NCBI GenBank assembly: GCA_011772595.1
Contig: WVZH01000369.1
Coordinates: forward strand, 1,335 to 8,536
Source: Anaerolineales bacterium
GTDB lineage: Bacteria; Chloroflexota; Anaerolineae; Anaerolineales; E44-bin32
Length of the DNA stretch: 7,202 nucleotides
Direction: 5' to 3'
Notes under the pieces: generated by a model
What the model was told of the DNA's origin: nothing
What the model saw: the letters and a program-made list of their open reading frames with translations, nothing else
Databases searched by the model: none
Shown here: positions 1 to 6,968 of the stretch, in pieces
Numbering within the stretch: the first letter of the stretch is position 1
Layout: every line of letters begins with the position of its first letter
Made by a program: the position numbers and the translations under genes

Positions 1-834
1 ATCGCCACCGCTGGATGCAATCTCCGATGTCTCTACTGCCAGAATTGGACCATCTCACAACGCGCGCCAGAGGAGACGCAAAATACCGATCTCCCACCTG
101 AAGATGTCGTCTACTTCGCCCGCAAATACGACGCGCCGGTAATCGCCTACACCTACTCCGAACCAGTCATCTTCTACGAATACATGTCAACGACTGCGCG
201 ACTCGCACGTAATGCCGGTTTGCGAAACGTGGTCATTTCCGCCGGCTTCATTGAATCTGAACCCCTGCGGCAACTCTGCAATGTCGTCGATGCTATCAAG
301 ATCGATCTCAAAGGATACGACGAGGATTTCTACCGAGATGTGTGTGGCGCCGAACTCCAACCTGTACTACGGGCGATTGAAACGATCTACGAGATGGGCG
401 TGCACATGGAGATCGTCAACCTGGTAGTTCCAACGCTCAACGACAGTTTCGAGCAATTACGCGCACTGACCCGCTGGTTGGCAAGAGACCTCAGCCCGGA
501 CGTCCCTCTGCACTTCAGTCGTTTTCATCCTCAATACAAGCTGATGAACTTACCACCAACACCAATTGAGACGCTTGAGAAAGCACACCAGATCGCTCAG
601 GAAGAAGGGATACGGTACGCATACGTTGGAAACGTGCCAGGCCACCCTGGTAACAATACCTATTGTCACACGTGTGGCAAACCCCTCATTCTCCGACAAG
701 GATTCGCTGTCTACGAGTATCACCTCGATGGAGGTATCTGCGAATATTGTGGCGAGCCAATTCCGGGTGTTTGGTGGCCTGGTGAACCCGAGGGCGAGCC
801 CGTTGAGGTCCAGCCCGGTCCTCCGGACACATAG
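1..834 (+). CDS. amrS: AmrS-type radical SAM enzyme (AmmeMemoRadiSam system), 5'-truncated by the window
   Basis: The reading frame is open from base 1 to the TAG at 832-834, giving 277 visible residues. The radical SAM cluster motif CNLRCLYC is at visible residues 6-13 (C6, C10, C13). The family's typical motifs follow: YTYSEPVIFYEY, then IKIDLKGYDEDFYR, FHPQYKL and GNVPGHP. A C-terminal CxxC...CxxC pair (C222/C225 and C247/C250) looks like a zinc ribbon or a site for a further metal. Compared with the complete paralogue at 5910-6968, about 83 N-terminal residues are missing, so the true start lies upstream of the window and the internal ATG at 184 is not the start. The C-terminal tail is rich in Gly, Pro and Glu and extends beyond the ribbon. 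Radical SAM enzymes of this family cleave S-adenosylmethionine reductively to start a radical reaction; the substrate of the AmrS family is not established. The gene directly precedes a Memo-AMMECR1 fusion, which fixes the family call. It could also be labelled pyruvate-formate-lyase-activating-like, a looser name for the same superfamily. Confidence 0.93.
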   Translation: MATAGCNLRCLYCQNWTISQRAPEETQNTDLPPEDVVYFARKYDAPVIAYTYSEPVIFYEYMSTTARLARNAGLRNVVISAGFIESEPLRQLCNVVDAIKIDLKGYDEDFYRDVCGAELQPVLRAIETIYEMGVHMEIVNLVVPTLNDSFEQLRALTRWLARDLSPDVPLHFSRFHPQYKLMNLPPTPIETLEKAHQIAQEEGIRYAYVGNVPGHPGNNTYCHTCGKPLILRQGFAVYEYHLDGGICEYCGEPIPGVWWPGEPEGEPVEVQPGPPDT

Positions 835-885: not shown

Positions 886-917
886 GGAAGCGACCTCAAG
901 TCGTGGAAAGTAGAAAC

Positions 918-921
918 GAGG
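918..921 (+). promoter_or_regulatory. Ribosome binding site that favours the ATG at 927
   Basis: GAGG lies 5 bases upstream of the ATG at 927. The alternative GTG at 903 has no comparable purine-rich site and would put an eight-residue charged leader in front of an otherwise textbook lipoprotein signal, so 927 is preferred. Confidence 0.6.
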
Positions 922-926
922 CAAGG

Positions 927-977
927 ATGAAACGTCTCAATGTGTTCATAGTTCTTGCACTCATTGTGACAAGTTGT
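927..977 (+). other. Lipoprotein signal peptide coding segment with lipobox
   Basis: The segment encodes the n-region KRLN, the hydrophobic core VFIVLALIV and the lipobox V-T-S-C, with Cys17 as the predicted lipidated residue. A long Thr/Pro linker immediately after the cysteine is typical of surface lipoproteins, which supports export rather than a chance hydrophobic start. Confidence 0.85.
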
Positions 978-2462
978 GCCACTAGACGCTCTAGTGTTAC
1001 CCCTACACCAAAGGTCAGAACACCCGACCAACCATCCCCGACCACAACCCATTACACACCTACACCCACCTCTGGTCGCATACGTTCATCCGTCATTGCC
1101 GGCCTATGGTACCCCGATGATCCGCAAGAACTCACTATAATGGTTGATGGATTCCTGTCAGCTGTACGACCGATCGACGGAGAACCGATCGCCATCATCG
1201 TCCCCCATGCGGGTTATGTCTATTCAGGGCATGTCGCCGCACATGGATTCAAGCAATTGGAAGGCGTCCCTTATGAGAGCGCCGTCATCATCGCCTCCGA
1301 CCATCAGACGCCACTATCCAGTCCGATCTCTGTATGGGCAGATGGCGGATTCGAGACCCCGCTTGGCATCGTCCCAGTGAACGTTGAACTAGCCCAAGCG
1401 CTAGTCGACGCCGATCCTCGCATCCAAGCCGATTACACTGCCCATCAAGGGGAACACCCAATCGAGATCGAACTTCCCTTCCTACAGCGTGTATGCCCAG
1501 GTTGTAGCATCGTCCCCATATTGATGTCTTCCGATGATGAAGAAATCGTACAAGCGCTGGCGGATGCGTTAATCCCGTTCCTTTCCGAGAGGCCGGCCGT
1601 GGTCATCGCCAGTTCCGACCTTTCCCACTACCCCGCCTATGAAGATGCCCTCAACGTTGATTCTGCTACGCTTGGAGCAATCGAAACTGGCGACACAAAG
1701 ATCTTGCGCCTGACGTTAGAGCGCTCGATGACAGAAGACATTCCCCAGCTTCTCACTTGTGCCTGTGGAGAAGGACCGATTCTGACCACTATGCTGATTG
1801 CGGAAGGTCTAAATGCAAACAATATCACATTGTTGCACTACGCGAACTCAGGCGACATCCCGGTTGGAGACAGAGAGCAAGTGGTAGGGTACGGATCCTT
1901 GATGTTCTGGCGCTACGAACCCCCAGCATTGAACGACGCACAACGTCGGAATTTACTTCAACTGGCTCGTACCGCAATCGAGGAACACCTCGAGAGCAGC
2001 CAAATTACACCGATCGAGATCACAGATCAGGTCTTACTCCGCCGCGCCGGCGTGTTCGTGACGCTCAAGGAAGAAGGTGAGTTGCGCGGCTGTATAGGTC
2101 ACCTTTGGGCAGACACCCCCTTGTACCAGATCGTCCAACATATGGCGGTTAAAGCCGCTACGTCAGATGCTCGATTCGCACCTGTCACTCGCGAAGAACT
2201 CGATCACCTGCATATTGAAATCTCGGTCCTGTCTCCCCTTCACCGCCTCACGGACATCGATCAGATCGAGGTTGGAACCCACGGCTTGTTGATCTTCCAA
2301 GAGGGGCGGCAAGCAGTGATGCTCCCCCAGGTAGCGATCGAGGAGGGGTGGGACCGAGACACGTTCATAGAAAGCCTATGTCTCAAGGCCGGTTCACCCG
2401 TAGATTGTATAACCGATCAAGCGACACTTTACAGTTTCACTGCCATCGTCTTTGGAGAGTAG
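927..2462 (+). CDS. Memo-AMMECR1 fusion (AmmeMemoRadiSam proteins B and A) with a lipoprotein signal
   Basis: The protein is 511 residues from the ATG at 927. Residues 1-17 form a lipoprotein signal: a KR-containing n-region, a hydrophobic stretch, then the lipobox V-T-S-C17. Residues 18-50 are a Thr/Pro/Ser-rich linker. The Memo domain (about 52-328) opens with AGLWYPDDP and carries PHAGYVYSG (H94), ASDHQ (H126), EHPIEIELPF (176-185), SSDLSH (H234) and CGEGPI (C280). H94, H126, H234 and C280 match by eye the metal ligands and nearby cysteine of human MEMO1, so the metal site looks intact. Memo belongs to the LigB-type extradiol dioxygenase superfamily. The AMMECR1 domain (about 335-511) carries the hallmark LRGCIG at 386-391. 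Fusion of the two domains is known in bacteria; export to the outer membrane face is the unusual part. The gene sits between two radical SAM genes and its stop overlaps or abuts the next start. Its biochemical role is not established. Confidence 0.92.
   Translation: MKRLNVFIVLALIVTSCATRRSSVTPTPKVRTPDQPSPTTTHYTPTPTSGRIRSSVIAGLWYPDDPQELTIMVDGFLSAVRPIDGEPIAIIVPHAGYVYSGHVAAHGFKQLEGVPYESAVIIASDHQTPLSSPISVWADGGFETPLGIVPVNVELAQALVDADPRIQADYTAHQGEHPIEIELPFLQRVCPGCSIVPILMSSDDEEIVQALADALIPFLSERPAVVIASSDLSHYPAYEDALNVDSATLGAIETGDTKILRLTLERSMTEDIPQLLTCACGEGPILTTMLIAEGLNANNITLLHYANSGDIPVGDREQVVGYGSLMFWRYEPPALNDAQRRNLLQLARTAIEEHLESSQITPIEITDQVLLRRAGVFVTLKEEGELRGCIGHLWADTPLYQIVQHMAVKAATSDARFAPVTREELDHLHIEISVLSPLHRLTDIDQIEVGTHGLLIFQEGRQAVMLPQVAIEEGWDRDTFIESLCLKAGSPVDCITDQATLYSFTAIVFGE
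2454..2459 (+). promoter_or_regulatory. Ribosome binding site inside the end of the Memo-AMMECR1 gene
   Basis: GGAGAG sits 5 bases before the GTG at 2465 and 2 bases before the GTG at 2462. The spacing favours 2465. It overlaps the last codons of the upstream gene, so ribosomes ending there could restart directly. Confidence 0.6.
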
Positions 2463-2464
2463 TG

Positions 2465-3685
2465 GTGAACGAGCATCAAGTTAGTGTTGTAGATCCGTCA
2501 ACTTGCGCCAACTGCGGGTTTTGCCAGGAGGTTCTCTTTTGTCCCAGCCCGGAAGAATGTGTTGGTTGCGGTGTTTGTGTAGTAGGTTGTCCCTATCGAG
2601 CGCGTAAATTTGTCTCCGATGAAAAACCTCGTCAGCAAATCACCATCAATTTGAACGGAAATACGATAAACGTACCCGAAAAAGTGACCCTCAAGTCTGC
2701 GATTGAGAGATCAGGTCATCGTATCGAGCACGTTCCCTGGGAAGGAGACCTCACTGTCCCGTGCCGCACGGGTGGCTGTTGGACGTGCGCCGTGCTTGTG
2801 GACGGACAACTCACAAGAGCCTGCGTGCAATCTGTCTCTGAGGGAATGGTCGTGCAAGTCCCCCCACCCGTCAAGAGCCCGCCGTTGCGCATTATCCACG
2901 GACCTCAACCTCATTCGGTAGGCGGAAAAGCGACACCGTGGTCCTTGAAGCGAAGCCGCCAATACATCGAGGTCGCCATTTGGACGGCAGGCTGTAATCT
3001 CCGTTGCCCTCAATGTCAAAATTACACCACGACCTACGACGGCACTTCTTCGGCAGTCACGCCGGAAGAGGCAGCTCGGCGAGTGACTCGTGCCCGTCAT
3101 CGATACCAAGTGGATCGCATGGCCATTTCGGGAGGCGAACCAACGCTCAATCGCCGCTGGCTGGTCACCTATTTTCACGCACTGCGGAAGCACAACTCCG
3201 ACCCCAACGCCAGGCTTCATCTGGATTCCAACGGCACCTTCCTTACACCTGACTATATCGACGAACTCGTCGAGGCAGGTGTGACCGATATCGGCGTCGA
3301 ACCCAAAGGGATTCGAACTGAAACCTTCATGCACATCACCGCAATATGCGATAGAAACCTGGCACAACGCTACCTCACAACGGCCTGGGAAGCCATCGCT
3401 CACATCACCTCTCACCATCGAGATCATGTCTTCCTCGGTGTAGGGTTACCGTACAACCAAGCGCTCATCGACCCTGGCGAGGTCCAGGATTTTGGCAGGA
3501 AGTTGGCCAGTATCGATCCCGAAATTCAGGTGTGCGTGCTCGATTATTTCCCCTCTTTCCGCCGACGGGACATAAGTAGGCCTAGTGCCCAAGAAATGCT
3601 AGCCATCAGGCGGCTGTTGGAAGGAACGGGTTTGAAAACCGTGGTTGTGCAGACCGCGAGGGGACACTTCGGACCGGGAGATTGA
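2465..3685 (+). CDS. Radical SAM protein with N-terminal 2x[4Fe-4S] ferredoxin and [2Fe-2S] domains
   Basis: The protein is 406 residues from the GTG at 2465; the GTG at 2462 would add one residue. Three iron-sulfur modules lie in order. Residues 10-45 carry two ferredoxin-type cysteine sets, C14/C17/C20 with C26 and C32/C35/C38 with C42, each ending in Cys-Pro, enough for two [4Fe-4S] clusters. Residues about 57-132 resemble a plant-type [2Fe-2S] domain, with C100-x4-C105-x2-C108 and C120 in the context VLVDGQLTRAC. Residues about 165-400 form a radical SAM domain with CNLRCPQC (C177, C181, C184) and SGGEPTL (222-228). The core around the radical SAM cysteines resembles the AmrS proteins encoded on either side, but the C-terminal GNVPGHP motif and zinc ribbon are absent. 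The extra domains suggest an intramolecular electron relay feeding the SAM cluster, which is an inference. No signal peptide is visible, so it should act in the cytoplasm. I do not recognise a named family; the substrate is unknown. Confidence 0.85.
   Translation: MNEHQVSVVDPSTCANCGFCQEVLFCPSPEECVGCGVCVVGCPYRARKFVSDEKPRQQITINLNGNTINVPEKVTLKSAIERSGHRIEHVPWEGDLTVPCRTGGCWTCAVLVDGQLTRACVQSVSEGMVVQVPPPVKSPPLRIIHGPQPHSVGGKATPWSLKRSRQYIEVAIWTAGCNLRCPQCQNYTTTYDGTSSAVTPEEAARRVTRARHRYQVDRMAISGGEPTLNRRWLVTYFHALRKHNSDPNARLHLDSNGTFLTPDYIDELVEAGVTDIGVEPKGIRTETFMHITAICDRNLAQRYLTTAWEAIAHITSHHRDHVFLGVGLPYNQALIDPGEVQDFGRKLASIDPEIQVCVLDYFPSFRRRDISRPSAQEMLAIRRLLEGTGLKTVVVQTARGHFGPGD
3676..3680 (+). promoter_or_regulatory. 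Ribosome binding site that favours the ATG at 3691
   Basis: GGGAG ends 10 bases before the ATG at 3691 but only 1 base before the alternative TTG at 3682, which is too close to work. The site lies within the last codons of the upstream gene. Confidence 0.5.
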
Positions 3686-3690
3686 GCCGG

Positions 3691-5913
3691 ATGAGATTAT
3701 CCCTGGCTGCTCTCGGATTCACCTTGTCCATCTCGCAGTTCTTGCTCATGCGCGAAATGGTGGCTACTTTCTATGGCAACGAATTGCTTTTTGGCTTGGT
3801 TCTAACGGTGTGGTTAGGCTGGGTGGCGGTCGGTGCGTGGGGTTTAGGACGATTAATCGTTCACACCATAGCTACACGTACGTGGCTTGCTCTGGGATTC
3901 GTTTCCCTAGGGATATTGCTTCCGGCTCAACTCACAATCATCCGTAACAGTCGCAACTTGTTGAACGTTCCTCCAGGCGCATTCGCAGAACTCGGTCCCA
4001 CGGTCCTCGTCATCGTTGTTACGCTGGCACCTTTGTGTCTCCTGGCAGGTCTGCTCTTCACGCTCGGCGTACGGATGATCATCGAACGTGGAGGATCTGC
4101 AGGTCATGCTTACGTTTGGGAAGGTCTCGGCGCCTTTGTAGGTGGTGTGTCGTTCAGCTTCTTCTTGATCCACCACCTTGACCCATATCAAACCGCCCTC
4201 GTAATATCAACTGTGGACATCGCCATCTCCGTCAGGTTGCTCCTCGATCCCCTCTCCAATCGGAGGATTCTTCGGTTGGCTCCCGTGATAGCACTCGCCC
4301 TGGGAATCCCGATCGCGCTCTCCCTGGGCCAAAATCTCCACATAAATACCCTCCGACATCAGTATTCTCGTTCCTCCACAGGCTCGGCCTACGAATTGCT
4401 ATTTGCAGCTGATTCACCCTACGGTCGGCTGGTCATTCAAGCCCGAGATGGACAACGTGTCTTCTTCGAGAACGGCCTTCTGGCATTTGAAACGCAGGGC
4501 ACCTTCCCCGAAGAGGTCGCTCACTTCCCATTGTTATCACATCCCGACCCTAAAACCGTGCTCCTCATTGGAGGAGGTGTTGCTGGTGATGTGCGTGAGA
4601 TCCTCAAGCATCCCATCGAACAGATGACGTATGTGGAGCTCGATCCATTACGGATCGAAGCGGCTCAACTTCATCTCCCATCGGAAGAAGCGCTTATCTT
4701 GGACAACCCTCGAGTGGACCTGGACCTCAACGACGGACGTGTCTTCATCAAGCAAACCAAGGAGCGTTTTGATGTCATCATCCTCGATTTGCCTGAGCCT
4801 TCCACCGGGACCCTCAACCGCTTCTATACTCAGGAATTCTTCAACGAAGTTCGCTCGATCCTCAACCCGGGTGGTGTTTTCGCACTGGGTTTACCTTCAG
4901 CGGAGAACTACTTGAGCCCGGAACTTGCGCGCCGTAACGGCAGCGTTTTCCATACCCTGCGAGCGATCTTCGCGCAGGTAGTCGTTCTGCCCGGCGAGCA
5001 CAACTTCTTCCTCAGTTCCAACACCACCATACAACTCGATCCCGCCGATTTGGTCGAGCGATTACATACACGCGGCATCGAAACAAGCTGGGTCACACCC
5101 GCATACATTGAATACACGCTCACCACAGGTCGTTTTGACATCGTGCGGCGTGAGTTGGAAGCCATCCAAGGTGTACCTATCAACCACGACCTATCCCCCA
5201 TCTGCTACTACTACGACTTGGCGTTGTGGCTCTCGAGGTTCTATCCCAACCTGCGTGGCGCATTCGAAGGAGCAAGTTTGTTCAACCTGTGGTGGATCGC
5301 CGCTCCGCTGTTTCTATGTGTCTTAATTGTCCGCTTGTTGCGTGCATCCAAACGGGAGCCTTCGACGGGAACATGGACAGTTACGTTCATTACAGCTAGT
5401 GTCGGGCTGTCGCAAATGATCTTACAGGTGGTGATCCTTTTCGCTTTCCAAGTGTTCCACGGCTCTTTATTCGCCGATGTTAGTCTAATTGTGGCAGCTT
5501 TTATGGCCGGTCTGACCATGGGAGGAACTTCAAGTACCCGCCTGCTAGAAACATGGGCTCTTCAGCGGAAAGCAAGAGCCAAATATGGACTGATGGTTGT
5601 CCTAATGACGAATCTCATACTGAGCTTCACTTTCCTGCTCTTCACACAACTGCCCTTTCCTGCTCCTCGGTTCGCCTTCCCACTAACGGCCATGTTGGCA
5701 GGAGCGCTCGCAGGACTTGCTTTCCCGTTTTCGGTTACCCTTGTAAAGGGAGACCGCAGCCGAACGGCGGGCATGCTTTACGGAGCCGACCTGGTAGGGG
5801 GTTGCTTGGGCGCCATCTTGACCACAGGTCTGTTTGTCCCTATCTTAGGCATCCCTCAGACTTGTTTGTTGGTAGCGATCGTTAGTCTTTCTGGTCTGTT
5901 GATATTGGGATGA
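3691..5913 (+). CDS. Membrane protein with a central spermidine-synthase-like domain between two helical bundles
   Basis: The protein is 740 residues from the ATG at 3691; the TTG at 3682 would add three and overlap the upstream stop. Seven hydrophobic segments precede the soluble domain (about 3-20, 31-53, 64-84, 102-127, 141-160, 166-185, 193-213) and seven follow it (about 529-550, 565-589, 593-612, 631-654, 661-685, 697-720, 721-740). The central domain (about 235-515) has a spermidine-synthase-type Rossmann fold: SPYGRLVI (242-249), GGGVAGDVRE (294-303), VELDP (315-319), NDGR (347-350), LDLPEPST (365-372) and FYTQEFF (378-384). It ends with NHDLSPICYYYDLALW (498-513), a motif I associate with the membrane-fused members. 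The GGGDG aspartate of true spermidine synthases is replaced by V297, and the second aspartate of DSSDP is E369, while the presumed catalytic D366 remains. Polyamine synthesis is therefore doubtful. It lies 5 bases after the ferredoxin-radical SAM gene and overlaps the next gene by 4 bases, so it belongs to the cluster. Function unknown. Confidence 0.87.
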   Translation: MRLSLAALGFTLSISQFLLMREMVATFYGNELLFGLVLTVWLGWVAVGAWGLGRLIVHTIATRTWLALGFVSLGILLPAQLTIIRNSRNLLNVPPGAFAELGPTVLVIVVTLAPLCLLAGLLFTLGVRMIIERGGSAGHAYVWEGLGAFVGGVSFSFFLIHHLDPYQTALVISTVDIAISVRLLLDPLSNRRILRLAPVIALALGIPIALSLGQNLHINTLRHQYSRSSTGSAYELLFAADSPYGRLVIQARDGQRVFFENGLLAFETQGTFPEEVAHFPLLSHPDPKTVLLIGGGVAGDVREILKHPIEQMTYVELDPLRIEAAQLHLPSEEALILDNPRVDLDLNDGRVFIKQTKERFDVIILDLPEPSTGTLNRFYTQEFFNEVRSILNPGGVFALGLPSAENYLSPELARRNGSVFHTLRAIFAQVVVLPGEHNFFLSSNTTIQLDPADLVERLHTRGIETSWVTPAYIEYTLTTGRFDIVRRELEAIQGVPINHDLSPICYYYDLALWLSRFYPNLRGAFEGASLFNLWWIAAPLFLCVLIVRLLRASKREPSTGTWTVTFITASVGLSQMILQVVILFAFQVFHGSLFADVSLIVAAFMAGLTMGGTSSTRLLETWALQRKARAKYGLMVVLMTNLILSFTFLLFTQLPFPAPRFAFPLTAMLAGALAGLAFPFSVTLVKGDRSRTAGMLYGADLVGGCLGAILTTGLFVPILGIPQTCLLVAIVSLSGLLILG

Positions 5914-6968
5914 CGAAAATGAATCCTGCAATTCGAAGGGAGGCGCTTCTCCAAGAGACGCTTGAAAACAAGATCCTCTGCGGGACCTGCGAGCGACGGT
6001 GCCTGCTCGTCGAAGGAGGAACTGGCTGGTGTCGCACACGCATCAACGTACAGGATAAGCTCTATACACTCACGTATGGTGCCGTATCGTCTCTTTCCGC
6101 CAACCCCATCGAAAAGAAACCCTTGTACCACTTCTATCCCGGCAGCCGAGCGCTGACTGCAGGAAGTTGGAGTTGCAATTTCGGCTGTCCGTGGTGCCAG
6201 AACTGGGACATCAGCAAGTCATCACCACGGCCGCATAGTCGTTATATGTCTCCCGAGAGATTTGTCGAAGAAACACAAAGGGCGAATTGCCAGGGAACTT
6301 CGATCAGTTTCAACGAGCCTACACTTTCACTGGAATGGTCACTCGACGTTTTTCGCCTCGCACGCGCCCGAGCACTGTACAACACCTATGTCACCAACGG
6401 CTATATGACTGAGCAGGCTCTTTCCATCCTGGCAGAAGCTGGGCTGGACGCTATGAACGTGGATGTAAAGGGGAGCCCCAAGACCGTTAGACGATATTGC
6501 AAAGGGGTCGATATCGAAAGGGTTTGGGCACGCTGCCAACAGGCACGTGTGTTGGGTATTCACCTGGAGATCACCACGTTGGTCATCCCTGAGGTCAACT
6601 CAGATGAGCTCACTTTGACGGAGATCGCTCAGCGAATTGTTTCGGATCTCGGACCTGAGACGCCCTGGCACGTCAGTGGCTACTATCCAGCATATCGCTT
6701 CCGCGCACCCCCGACGCGTATCTCAACGCTGGAACAAGCCTGTAAGTGTGCTAAGGAAGCCGGACTACACTACGTATACATCGGAAATGTCCCCGGTCAT
6801 CCGTATGACAATACAAAGTGTCCGGTATGTGGTGCAACCTTGATTATCCGCATGGGTTTTGACATATTACGGAACGAGATACGAGATGGATGTTGCCCTC
6901 AATGCCACACACCTATCCGCGGCGAGGGTTGGAATTGGCAAGAGAATTCACAATCAAACTCCACCTGA
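5910..6968 (+). CDS. amrS: AmrS-type radical SAM enzyme (AmmeMemoRadiSam system), complete second copy
   Basis: The protein is 352 residues, a length I consider normal for the family. Residues 24-41 carry the N-terminal cysteine group CGTCERRC plus C41 (C24, C27, C31, C41), which could bind a metal or an extra cluster. The radical SAM motif CNFGCPWC is at 89-96. Then follow SFNEPTLSLEW (133-143), a VTNGYMTEQAL segment, MNVDVKGSPK (182-191), YYPAYRF (258-264), GNVPGHP (292-298) and a C-terminal CPVC (304-307)/CPQC (329-332) ribbon. The start ATG overlaps the upstream TGA as ATGA, indicating translational coupling; ATG 5919 is an alternative only three codons in, and the purine run GGGA at 5907-5910 would suit it about equally. 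It aligns along its length with the truncated gene at 1-834 but is clearly divergent, so the two are old paralogues rather than a recent duplication. The substrate is not established; the presence of Memo-AMMECR1 in the cluster places it in the AmmeMemoRadiSam system. Confidence 0.93.
   Translation: MTKMNPAIRREALLQETLENKILCGTCERRCLLVEGGTGWCRTRINVQDKLYTLTYGAVSSLSANPIEKKPLYHFYPGSRALTAGSWSCNFGCPWCQNWDISKSSPRPHSRYMSPERFVEETQRANCQGTSISFNEPTLSLEWSLDVFRLARARALYNTYVTNGYMTEQALSILAEAGLDAMNVDVKGSPKTVRRYCKGVDIERVWARCQQARVLGIHLEITTLVIPEVNSDELTLTEIAQRIVSDLGPETPWHVSGYYPAYRFRAPPTRISTLEQACKCAKEAGLHYVYIGNVPGHPYDNTKCPVCGATLIIRMGFDILRNEIRDGCCPQCHTPIRGEGWNWQENSQSNST

Follow-up and report, generated by a model that had tools for sequence, protein, structure and literature searches.

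A mainly archaeal family of radical SAM proteins with N-terminal ferredoxin-like and [2Fe-2S] domains and its statistical association with a branch of AmmeMemoRadiSam enzymes

The window analysed here, a stretch of 7,202 nucleotides from contig WVZH01000369.1 of an Anaerolineales bacterium, carries a tight set of genes on the same strand: a partial AmrS1, a Memo-AMMECR1 fusion, a gene that we name FdxRS in the present analysis, a membrane protein gene and AmrS2. FdxRS (2465..3685, plus strand, as are all window features given below) encodes a 406-aa radical S-adenosylmethionine (SAM) enzyme with an N-terminal eight-cysteine ferredoxin-like module and a [2Fe-2S] domain, on the evidence of the open reading frame (ORF), its translation, Pfam, homologs and a structure model. 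A preliminary description of this DNA had listed twelve cysteines ahead of a radical SAM motif. With the GTG at 2465 as start, translation puts all of them where they had been placed (14/17/20/26, 32/35/38/42 and 100/105/108/120), followed by the radical SAM motif at 177/181/184. This start agrees with a GGAG at 2454-2457 and gives a protein as long as most of the 120 listed homologs, which have about 400-415 aa. Residues 1-140 contain 12 cysteines and residues 141-406 contain 5.

The compact module at residues 14-42 (2504..2590) has the spacing C-x2-C-x2-C-x5-C-x5-C-x2-C-x2-C-x3-C, and the CxxCxxCx(n)C(P) motif, present twice, makes it resemble a dicluster, 2x[4Fe-4S] ferredoxin. Profile membership falls short, as Fer4 reaches 19.6 bits against a cut-off of 21.1 in Pfam and the dicluster models likewise stay under theirs; PF00037 or PF12838 is annotated on a number of the listed homologs. 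The middle domain (residues 57-131; 2633..2857), which the preliminary description had taken for a [2Fe-2S] domain, is one: Fer2_4 matches these residues with 41.2 bits, over the gathering score of 22.8, the presumed ligands C100/C105/C108/C120 are in place (C-x4-C-x2-C-x11-C), and the predicted fold is the beta-grasp of the Fer2 [2Fe-2S] family. Between this domain and the barrel lies a family signature, R-IIHGPQPH-VGGKATPW (residues 142-159; 2888..2941), in which R142, G146, P147, H150, V152, G153, K155, T157, P158 and W159 do not vary in 28 aligned rows. The radical SAM partial barrel itself spans residues ~168-395 (2966..3649), and its membership in the superfamily follows from the CxxxCxxC motif (C177/C181/C184) and from PF04055, which matches residues 173-329 with 75.7 bits vs 29.5 in Pfam. 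Narrower families did not take in the protein. The TIGR04337 model (AmmeMemoRadiSam radical SAM enzyme, cut-off 220 bits) is absent from its best 25 of 83 NCBIfam models, the 25th of which scores 22.1 bits, and glycyl radical enzyme activase (TIGR02493, 37.1 vs 231.75; TIGR04041, 30.1 vs 250.2), MoaA (51.2 vs 284.05) and NrdG2 (50.3 vs 131.15 bits) are all under cut-off.

AlphaFold2 models agree with three modules in one chain, with a predicted local distance difference test score (pLDDT) of 90.9 for the whole protein. A structure search with the whole model listed radical SAM enzymes alone, the nearest being the pyruvate formate-lyase (PFL) activating enzyme (3cb8), so residues 1-143 were folded separately (pLDDT 90.8). 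In this second model the ferredoxin-like module is a strand-helix-helix-strand; the structure matches span residues 56-143 and give little information on residues 1-55. The [2Fe-2S] domain resembles the NuoG/[FeFe]-hydrogenase type, and the barrel resembles PFL-activase, from which FdxRS differs in its low TIGR02493 score; PFL-activase is not known to have N-terminal Fe-S domains. What sets the [2Fe-2S] domain of FdxRS apart from those found in NuoG, [FeFe]-hydrogenase, FDH and xanthine oxidase relatives is that it is joined to a radical SAM barrel and follows the 4Fe-4S module. No solved structure with the whole layout appeared in the structure-search listings, which does not prove its absence. 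A parallel in principle is TYW1 (PMC4417183), likewise a radical SAM protein into which a redox domain is built, one that is missing from some relatives. In TYW1 an N-terminal flavodoxin (flavin mononucleotide) domain takes the place of the Fe-S modules.

To the view that this layout is rare, the searches gave a divided answer. As a one-off or unique fusion it is rejected, for 1347 proteins match FdxRS at E 1e-3 or better, and Fer2_4 is paired with radical SAM in 120/120 of the matches listed (the best 120 of 1347); in bacteria, it is indeed sporadic. A scan of a genome collection gave 54 loci, 50 of them in archaeal records (including two weak matches, L053 and L054), and the bacterial ones come from two records of Chloroflexota and one each of Omnitrophota and Methylomirabilota. 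Among the genomes sampled, counting the seeds and with phyla named after the label of the seed genome, FdxRS was found in 29/141 Thermoproteota, 24/196 Halobacteriota and 2/251 Chloroflexota. It was also found in 1/201 genomes of the order of G001, the genome of an Anaerolineaceae relative (L001), and in 1/145 Omnitrophota, each time in the seed itself. The family is thus broad, mainly archaeal and sporadic in bacteria. Its members include metagenome proteins, such as P0003-P0009, with 60-70% identity. No description of its architecture was found in open-licence literature, and it is apparently unstudied. One genome (G189) holds three paralogs (L062, L063 and L064) with 42-46% identity to the window protein, and the 9.4-kb contig of the L063 fragment also carries one ORF that resembles PFL and two that resemble activases, as judged by eye. 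Among the window proteins scanned with Pfam there is no glycyl radical enzyme domain.

The cysteines are conserved across the family. In an alignment of 120 sequences (the window protein and 119 other listed homologs, with 1227 further matches outside it), the 15 cluster positions hold cysteine or a gap and nothing else. All 15 are kept in 108/108 sequences extending to residue 14, and C177/C181/C184 in 120/120. A non-cluster cysteine, C357 in VCVLDYFP (3533..3535), is cysteine in 114/120. A second alignment compared the window protein with 35 loci at 34-48% identity, leaving out 19 of the 54 that were mostly truncated or had an unclear start, and the sole loss of a cluster cysteine is that of Cys38 in the L003 row, which has a short deletion. 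Such conservation at 15 positions excludes chance as the source of the pattern.

Three relatives (L021, L026 and L029) start at the [2Fe-2S] domain, and the dicluster ferredoxin motif, sought in their loci, was not found there. They may represent one or two losses of the module, the fork that joins them being drawn open in the tree. The [2Fe-2S] domain and barrel therefore form the core of the family, and the ferredoxin module is an extension that may be absent. These shorter relatives would also suit a different account, in which the upstream cysteine domains are redox or oxygen sensors or substrate-binding auxiliary clusters and a free ferredoxin reduces the SAM cluster directly. We regard it as improbable, for 108/108 sequences retain all eight ferredoxin cysteines, making up complete cluster sets, and the [2Fe-2S] domain folds like the electron-entry domains of NuoG, hydrogenase and FDH. 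The same two features, complete ligand sets and an electron-entry fold, support a redox relay in FdxRS, and the built-in electron wire proposed by the preliminary description is plausible.

FdxRS indeed lies between Memo-AMMECR1 and the membrane protein, as first described, and two AmrS genes complete the set. AmrS1 (1..834), an AmmeMemoRadiSam radical SAM enzyme, is open from base 1 with its 5' end beyond the window; its TIGR04337 match (208.6 bits over the part 184-834) is under the cut-off of 220 because the gene is cut short. Memo-AMMECR1 (903..2462) matches TIGR04336 with 233.4 bits and TIGR04335 with 175 bits, both over cut-off, and its stop is followed by FdxRS after 2 bases. Its N-terminus is lipoprotein-like (MKRLNVFIVLALIVTSC...; LPAM_1 weak, E 0.26, under cut-off), and because of this possible signal the fusion may be outside the cytoplasm. 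The membrane protein (3682..5913) is polytopic, with 743 aa, 11 hydrophobic segments in a Kyte-Doolittle count, which found none in FdxRS or AmrS2, and a spermidine-synthase-like domain (PF01564, E 1.5e-29; NF037959, 51.1 bits vs 40). Its gene overlaps the FdxRS stop and the AmrS2 start by 4 bases each, and it has no tblastn match in the FdxRS loci. AmrS2 (5910..6968) is likewise an AmmeMemoRadiSam radical SAM enzyme (TIGR04337, 252.1 bits vs 220), and its branch is the one found to accompany FdxRS.

With TIGR04336, TIGR04335 and TIGR04337 (AmrS2) all over cut-off, the window contains an AmmeMemoRadiSam gene system, to which FdxRS is an addition and no defining part. FdxRS shares with AmrS the gene set, the superfamily and the co-occurrence described below; in the core, FdxRS relatives and the window AmrS2 have about 20-30% identity. 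AmmeMemoRadiSam proteins have MEMO1 and AMMECR1 as human relatives. No paper that settles the function of the bacterial or archaeal system was found in open-licence literature.

It turned out that genomes with FdxRS also have AmrS. When 27 of the 54 loci were tested, 27/27 FdxRS genomes had an AmrS that passed the TIGR04337 cut-off, vs 4/14 control genomes; such an AmrS was present among the sampled Halobacteriota (which share G006 and G024 with the 27-genome set) in 24/24 genomes with FdxRS as well. The reverse does not hold, as AmrS occurs in 162/196 Halobacteriota against 24 with FdxRS, and in 73/251 Chloroflexota against 2. The role of dedicated reductant of the system that had been suggested for FdxRS is therefore unlikely to be a general one, and a general reductant of AmmeMemoRadiSam is rejected, since most AmrS genomes are without FdxRS.

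FdxRS genomes tend to hold a second, lower-scoring AmrS. In a tree of 61 AmrS proteins, the window AmrS2 and one copy from each of 22/27 genomes form a 100/100 clade, which has no copy from G003, G004, G006, G009 or G022 and leaves the window AmrS1 outside. We searched the samples with a model of this clade (A3), which leaves out the broken or truncated AmrS2 copies L109 and L113; the AmrS set itself is without a few fragments of the 27-genome test. In calibration, full-length AmrS2 scored at least 434 bits, two truncated copies 362 and 373, and other AmrS at most 392; the cut-off was E 1e-117, which in Chloroflexota admits scores from about 409 bits.

AmrS2 was found in 26/29 FdxRS genomes vs 28/112 others in Thermoproteota (Fisher p 2e-10), in 15/24 vs 22/172 in Halobacteriota (p 4e-7), and in 2/2 vs 3/249 in Chloroflexota (p 3e-4), where one of the three, a 413-bit row, is doubtful. 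Because rows of 399-428 bits in Thermoproteota are doubtful as well, that test was rerun at 430 bits (also 460), and at 430 bits AmrS2 was present in 25/29 FdxRS genomes vs 20/112 others. The samples include the seed and genomes known beforehand to hold FdxRS (7 Thermoproteota, 2 Halobacteriota and 1 Chloroflexota). Without the genomes in which the pattern was found, AmrS2 accompanies FdxRS in 21/22 vs 28/112 Thermoproteota (p 4e-10), 14/22 vs 22/172 Halobacteriota (p 6e-7) and 1/1 vs 3/249 Chloroflexota (p 0.016). One genome with both genes is that of Methanococcoides (G005; FdxRS in L021, AmrS2 in L095). In the tree of FdxRS, members without AmrS2 do not cluster tightly but are spread out, with nine changes vs a shuffled mean of 11.8. 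FdxRS is thus statistically tied to AmrS, chiefly to the AmrS2 branch, and neither gene requires the other; the association with this branch is what is new here.

From the domains, the cysteine conservation, the fold, the gene set and the co-occurrence, all of them computed, we infer the cluster occupancy, the electron path and a pathway common with AmrS2. With a probability of roughly 0.6, FdxRS would be a radical SAM enzyme that is supplied with electrons through a built-in chain, shares the pathway of AmrS2 and is not a general AmmeMemoRadiSam reductant. Electrons would come from outside the protein, probably from a low-potential ferredoxin or some redox enzyme, and enter at the 2x[4Fe-4S] module, the [2Fe-2S] domain or both, the [2Fe-2S] domain acting as the fixed input and the module as an extension absent from some relatives. 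From there they would reach the [4Fe-4S] cluster of C177/C181/C184, which would cleave SAM so that the 5'-deoxyadenosyl radical attacks a substrate. The intact CxxxCxxC motif and the PFL-activase-like barrel make the core a putative active radical enzyme. FdxRS would work in the pathway of AmrS2, its gene being grouped with Memo-AMMECR1 in this bacterium. A tentative extension goes further: FdxRS, with a four-cluster internal electron chain, and AmrS2 might be two radical SAM steps of one ancient archaeal pathway, perhaps of RNA or protein modification, passed to a few bacteria and joined here with an extracytoplasmic Memo-AMMECR1. A recurring partner enzyme, and AmrS branches with different partners, offer a concrete place to seek the substrate; if the proposed chain is real, FdxRS would be a good model for electron supply to radical SAM enzymes.

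Several results weigh against a pathway shared with AmrS2. The A3 model was built from the window and FdxRS genomes alone, and the Fisher tests ignore kinship. The pairing is loose, as 9 Halobacteriota have FdxRS without AmrS2 and 22 have AmrS2 without FdxRS. In distance matrices of 22 genomes, FdxRS follows AmrS2 (r 0.39) no more than AmrS1 (r 0.43; one hand-chosen AmrS1 copy per genome). In 3/26 Thermoproteota genomes with both genes (G824, G839 and G821) the two share a contig and are no more than about 7 kb apart, G824 and G839 being syntenic kin, and most other genomes with the pair have them on different contigs. The AmrS near FdxRS in the bacterial locus L004 is outside the AmrS2 clade, and no Memo or AMMECR1 was found near archaeal FdxRS by tblastn with the window domains (E 1e-4; flanks of at most 10 kb, often shorter). 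The matrices also give a partial r of 0.25 (permutation p 0.005).

The co-occurrence could also mean that FdxRS is mainly an electron-delivery or activating partner of AmrS, as the preliminary description had proposed. It would then wire electrons to AmrS2, or it would generate a radical, glycyl or of another kind, on that protein or on Memo-AMMECR1. The grouping with Memo-AMMECR1 and both AmrS genes in the window, the AMMECR1 or AmrS near FdxRS in L001 and L004, the presence of AmrS in all FdxRS genomes of both sets (27/27 and 24/24), the tie to AmrS2 and the activase as nearest fold would all suit such a partner. We consider it unlikely, for FdxRS is absent from most AmrS genomes, AmrS2 stands without FdxRS in 28 Thermoproteota besides the 22 Halobacteriota, Memo and AMMECR1 were not found in the archaeal flanks fetched, and the radical SAM motif, kept in 120/120, would be superfluous for mere electron transfer. 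A plain AmrS reductant is less likely on the same grounds of the kept core and the many AmrS genomes without FdxRS. An enzyme with its own input chain in the AmrS2 pathway is the reading that we prefer.

In other genomes, the link of FdxRS to AmmeMemoRadiSam genes, also expected by the preliminary description, stands as a statistical tie to AmrS and fails for Memo and AMMECR1 in the archaeal flanks. Besides the window operon, two bacterial relatives have AmmeMemoRadiSam neighbours. In L001 (Anaerolineaceae, CP070708) AMMECR1 is directly upstream of FdxRS, and in L004 an AmrS lies two genes upstream with a PCMT gene in between; in L003 (4.6 kb long) and L029 no such neighbour was matched. A conserved archaeal operon is rejected, as no neighbour family occurs in more than 6 FdxRS loci except ABC-type ATPases (clustering, by eye).

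In L006 and L014 a Trm5/TYW2-family gene immediately precedes FdxRS, and in L109 one adjoins AmrS2. FdxRS might accordingly be an RNA-modifying radical SAM enzyme beside tRNA methyltransferases of this type, and Burroughs 2019 reportedly linked Memo to nucleotide modification. That study of Memo is mentioned in PMC7159879. The adjacency is a lead only, and such a role seems to us doubtful: it is limited to 2 FdxRS loci and 1 AmrS2 locus, all labelled Bathyarchaeota, out of 71 and 21 (anchor found in 90/92), and the remaining archaeal neighbours vary by lineage. Housekeeping genes that lie next to each other by chance are a likely cause. A possible three-gene operon, Trm5/TYW2 - FdxRS - a protein of about 390 aa, is seen at L006:8853-12353 and L014:8855-12429; the last protein of L006 has no Pfam match.

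The deposited 'chromosome' of L001 contains 100-N runs at steadily decreasing intervals. It therefore looks like length-sorted, joined contigs, and neighbours across the runs carry no meaning. The piece 9206-11181, with the end of Memo, AMMECR1 and most of FdxRS, was alone treated as contiguous; an 834-aa ORF was for this reason not accepted as a fusion, and the larger Anaerolineaceae context was set aside. The same genome (G001) holds at least 5 AmrS-type copies in one Anaerolineaceae bin, which is perhaps mixed. In one archaeal lineage, AmrS2 adjoins a KaiC/RadA-like ATPase (L153:7053-8844, L154:11175-12966 and L159:310-2080), with glycine-dehydrogenase-like genes close by, both as judged by eye.
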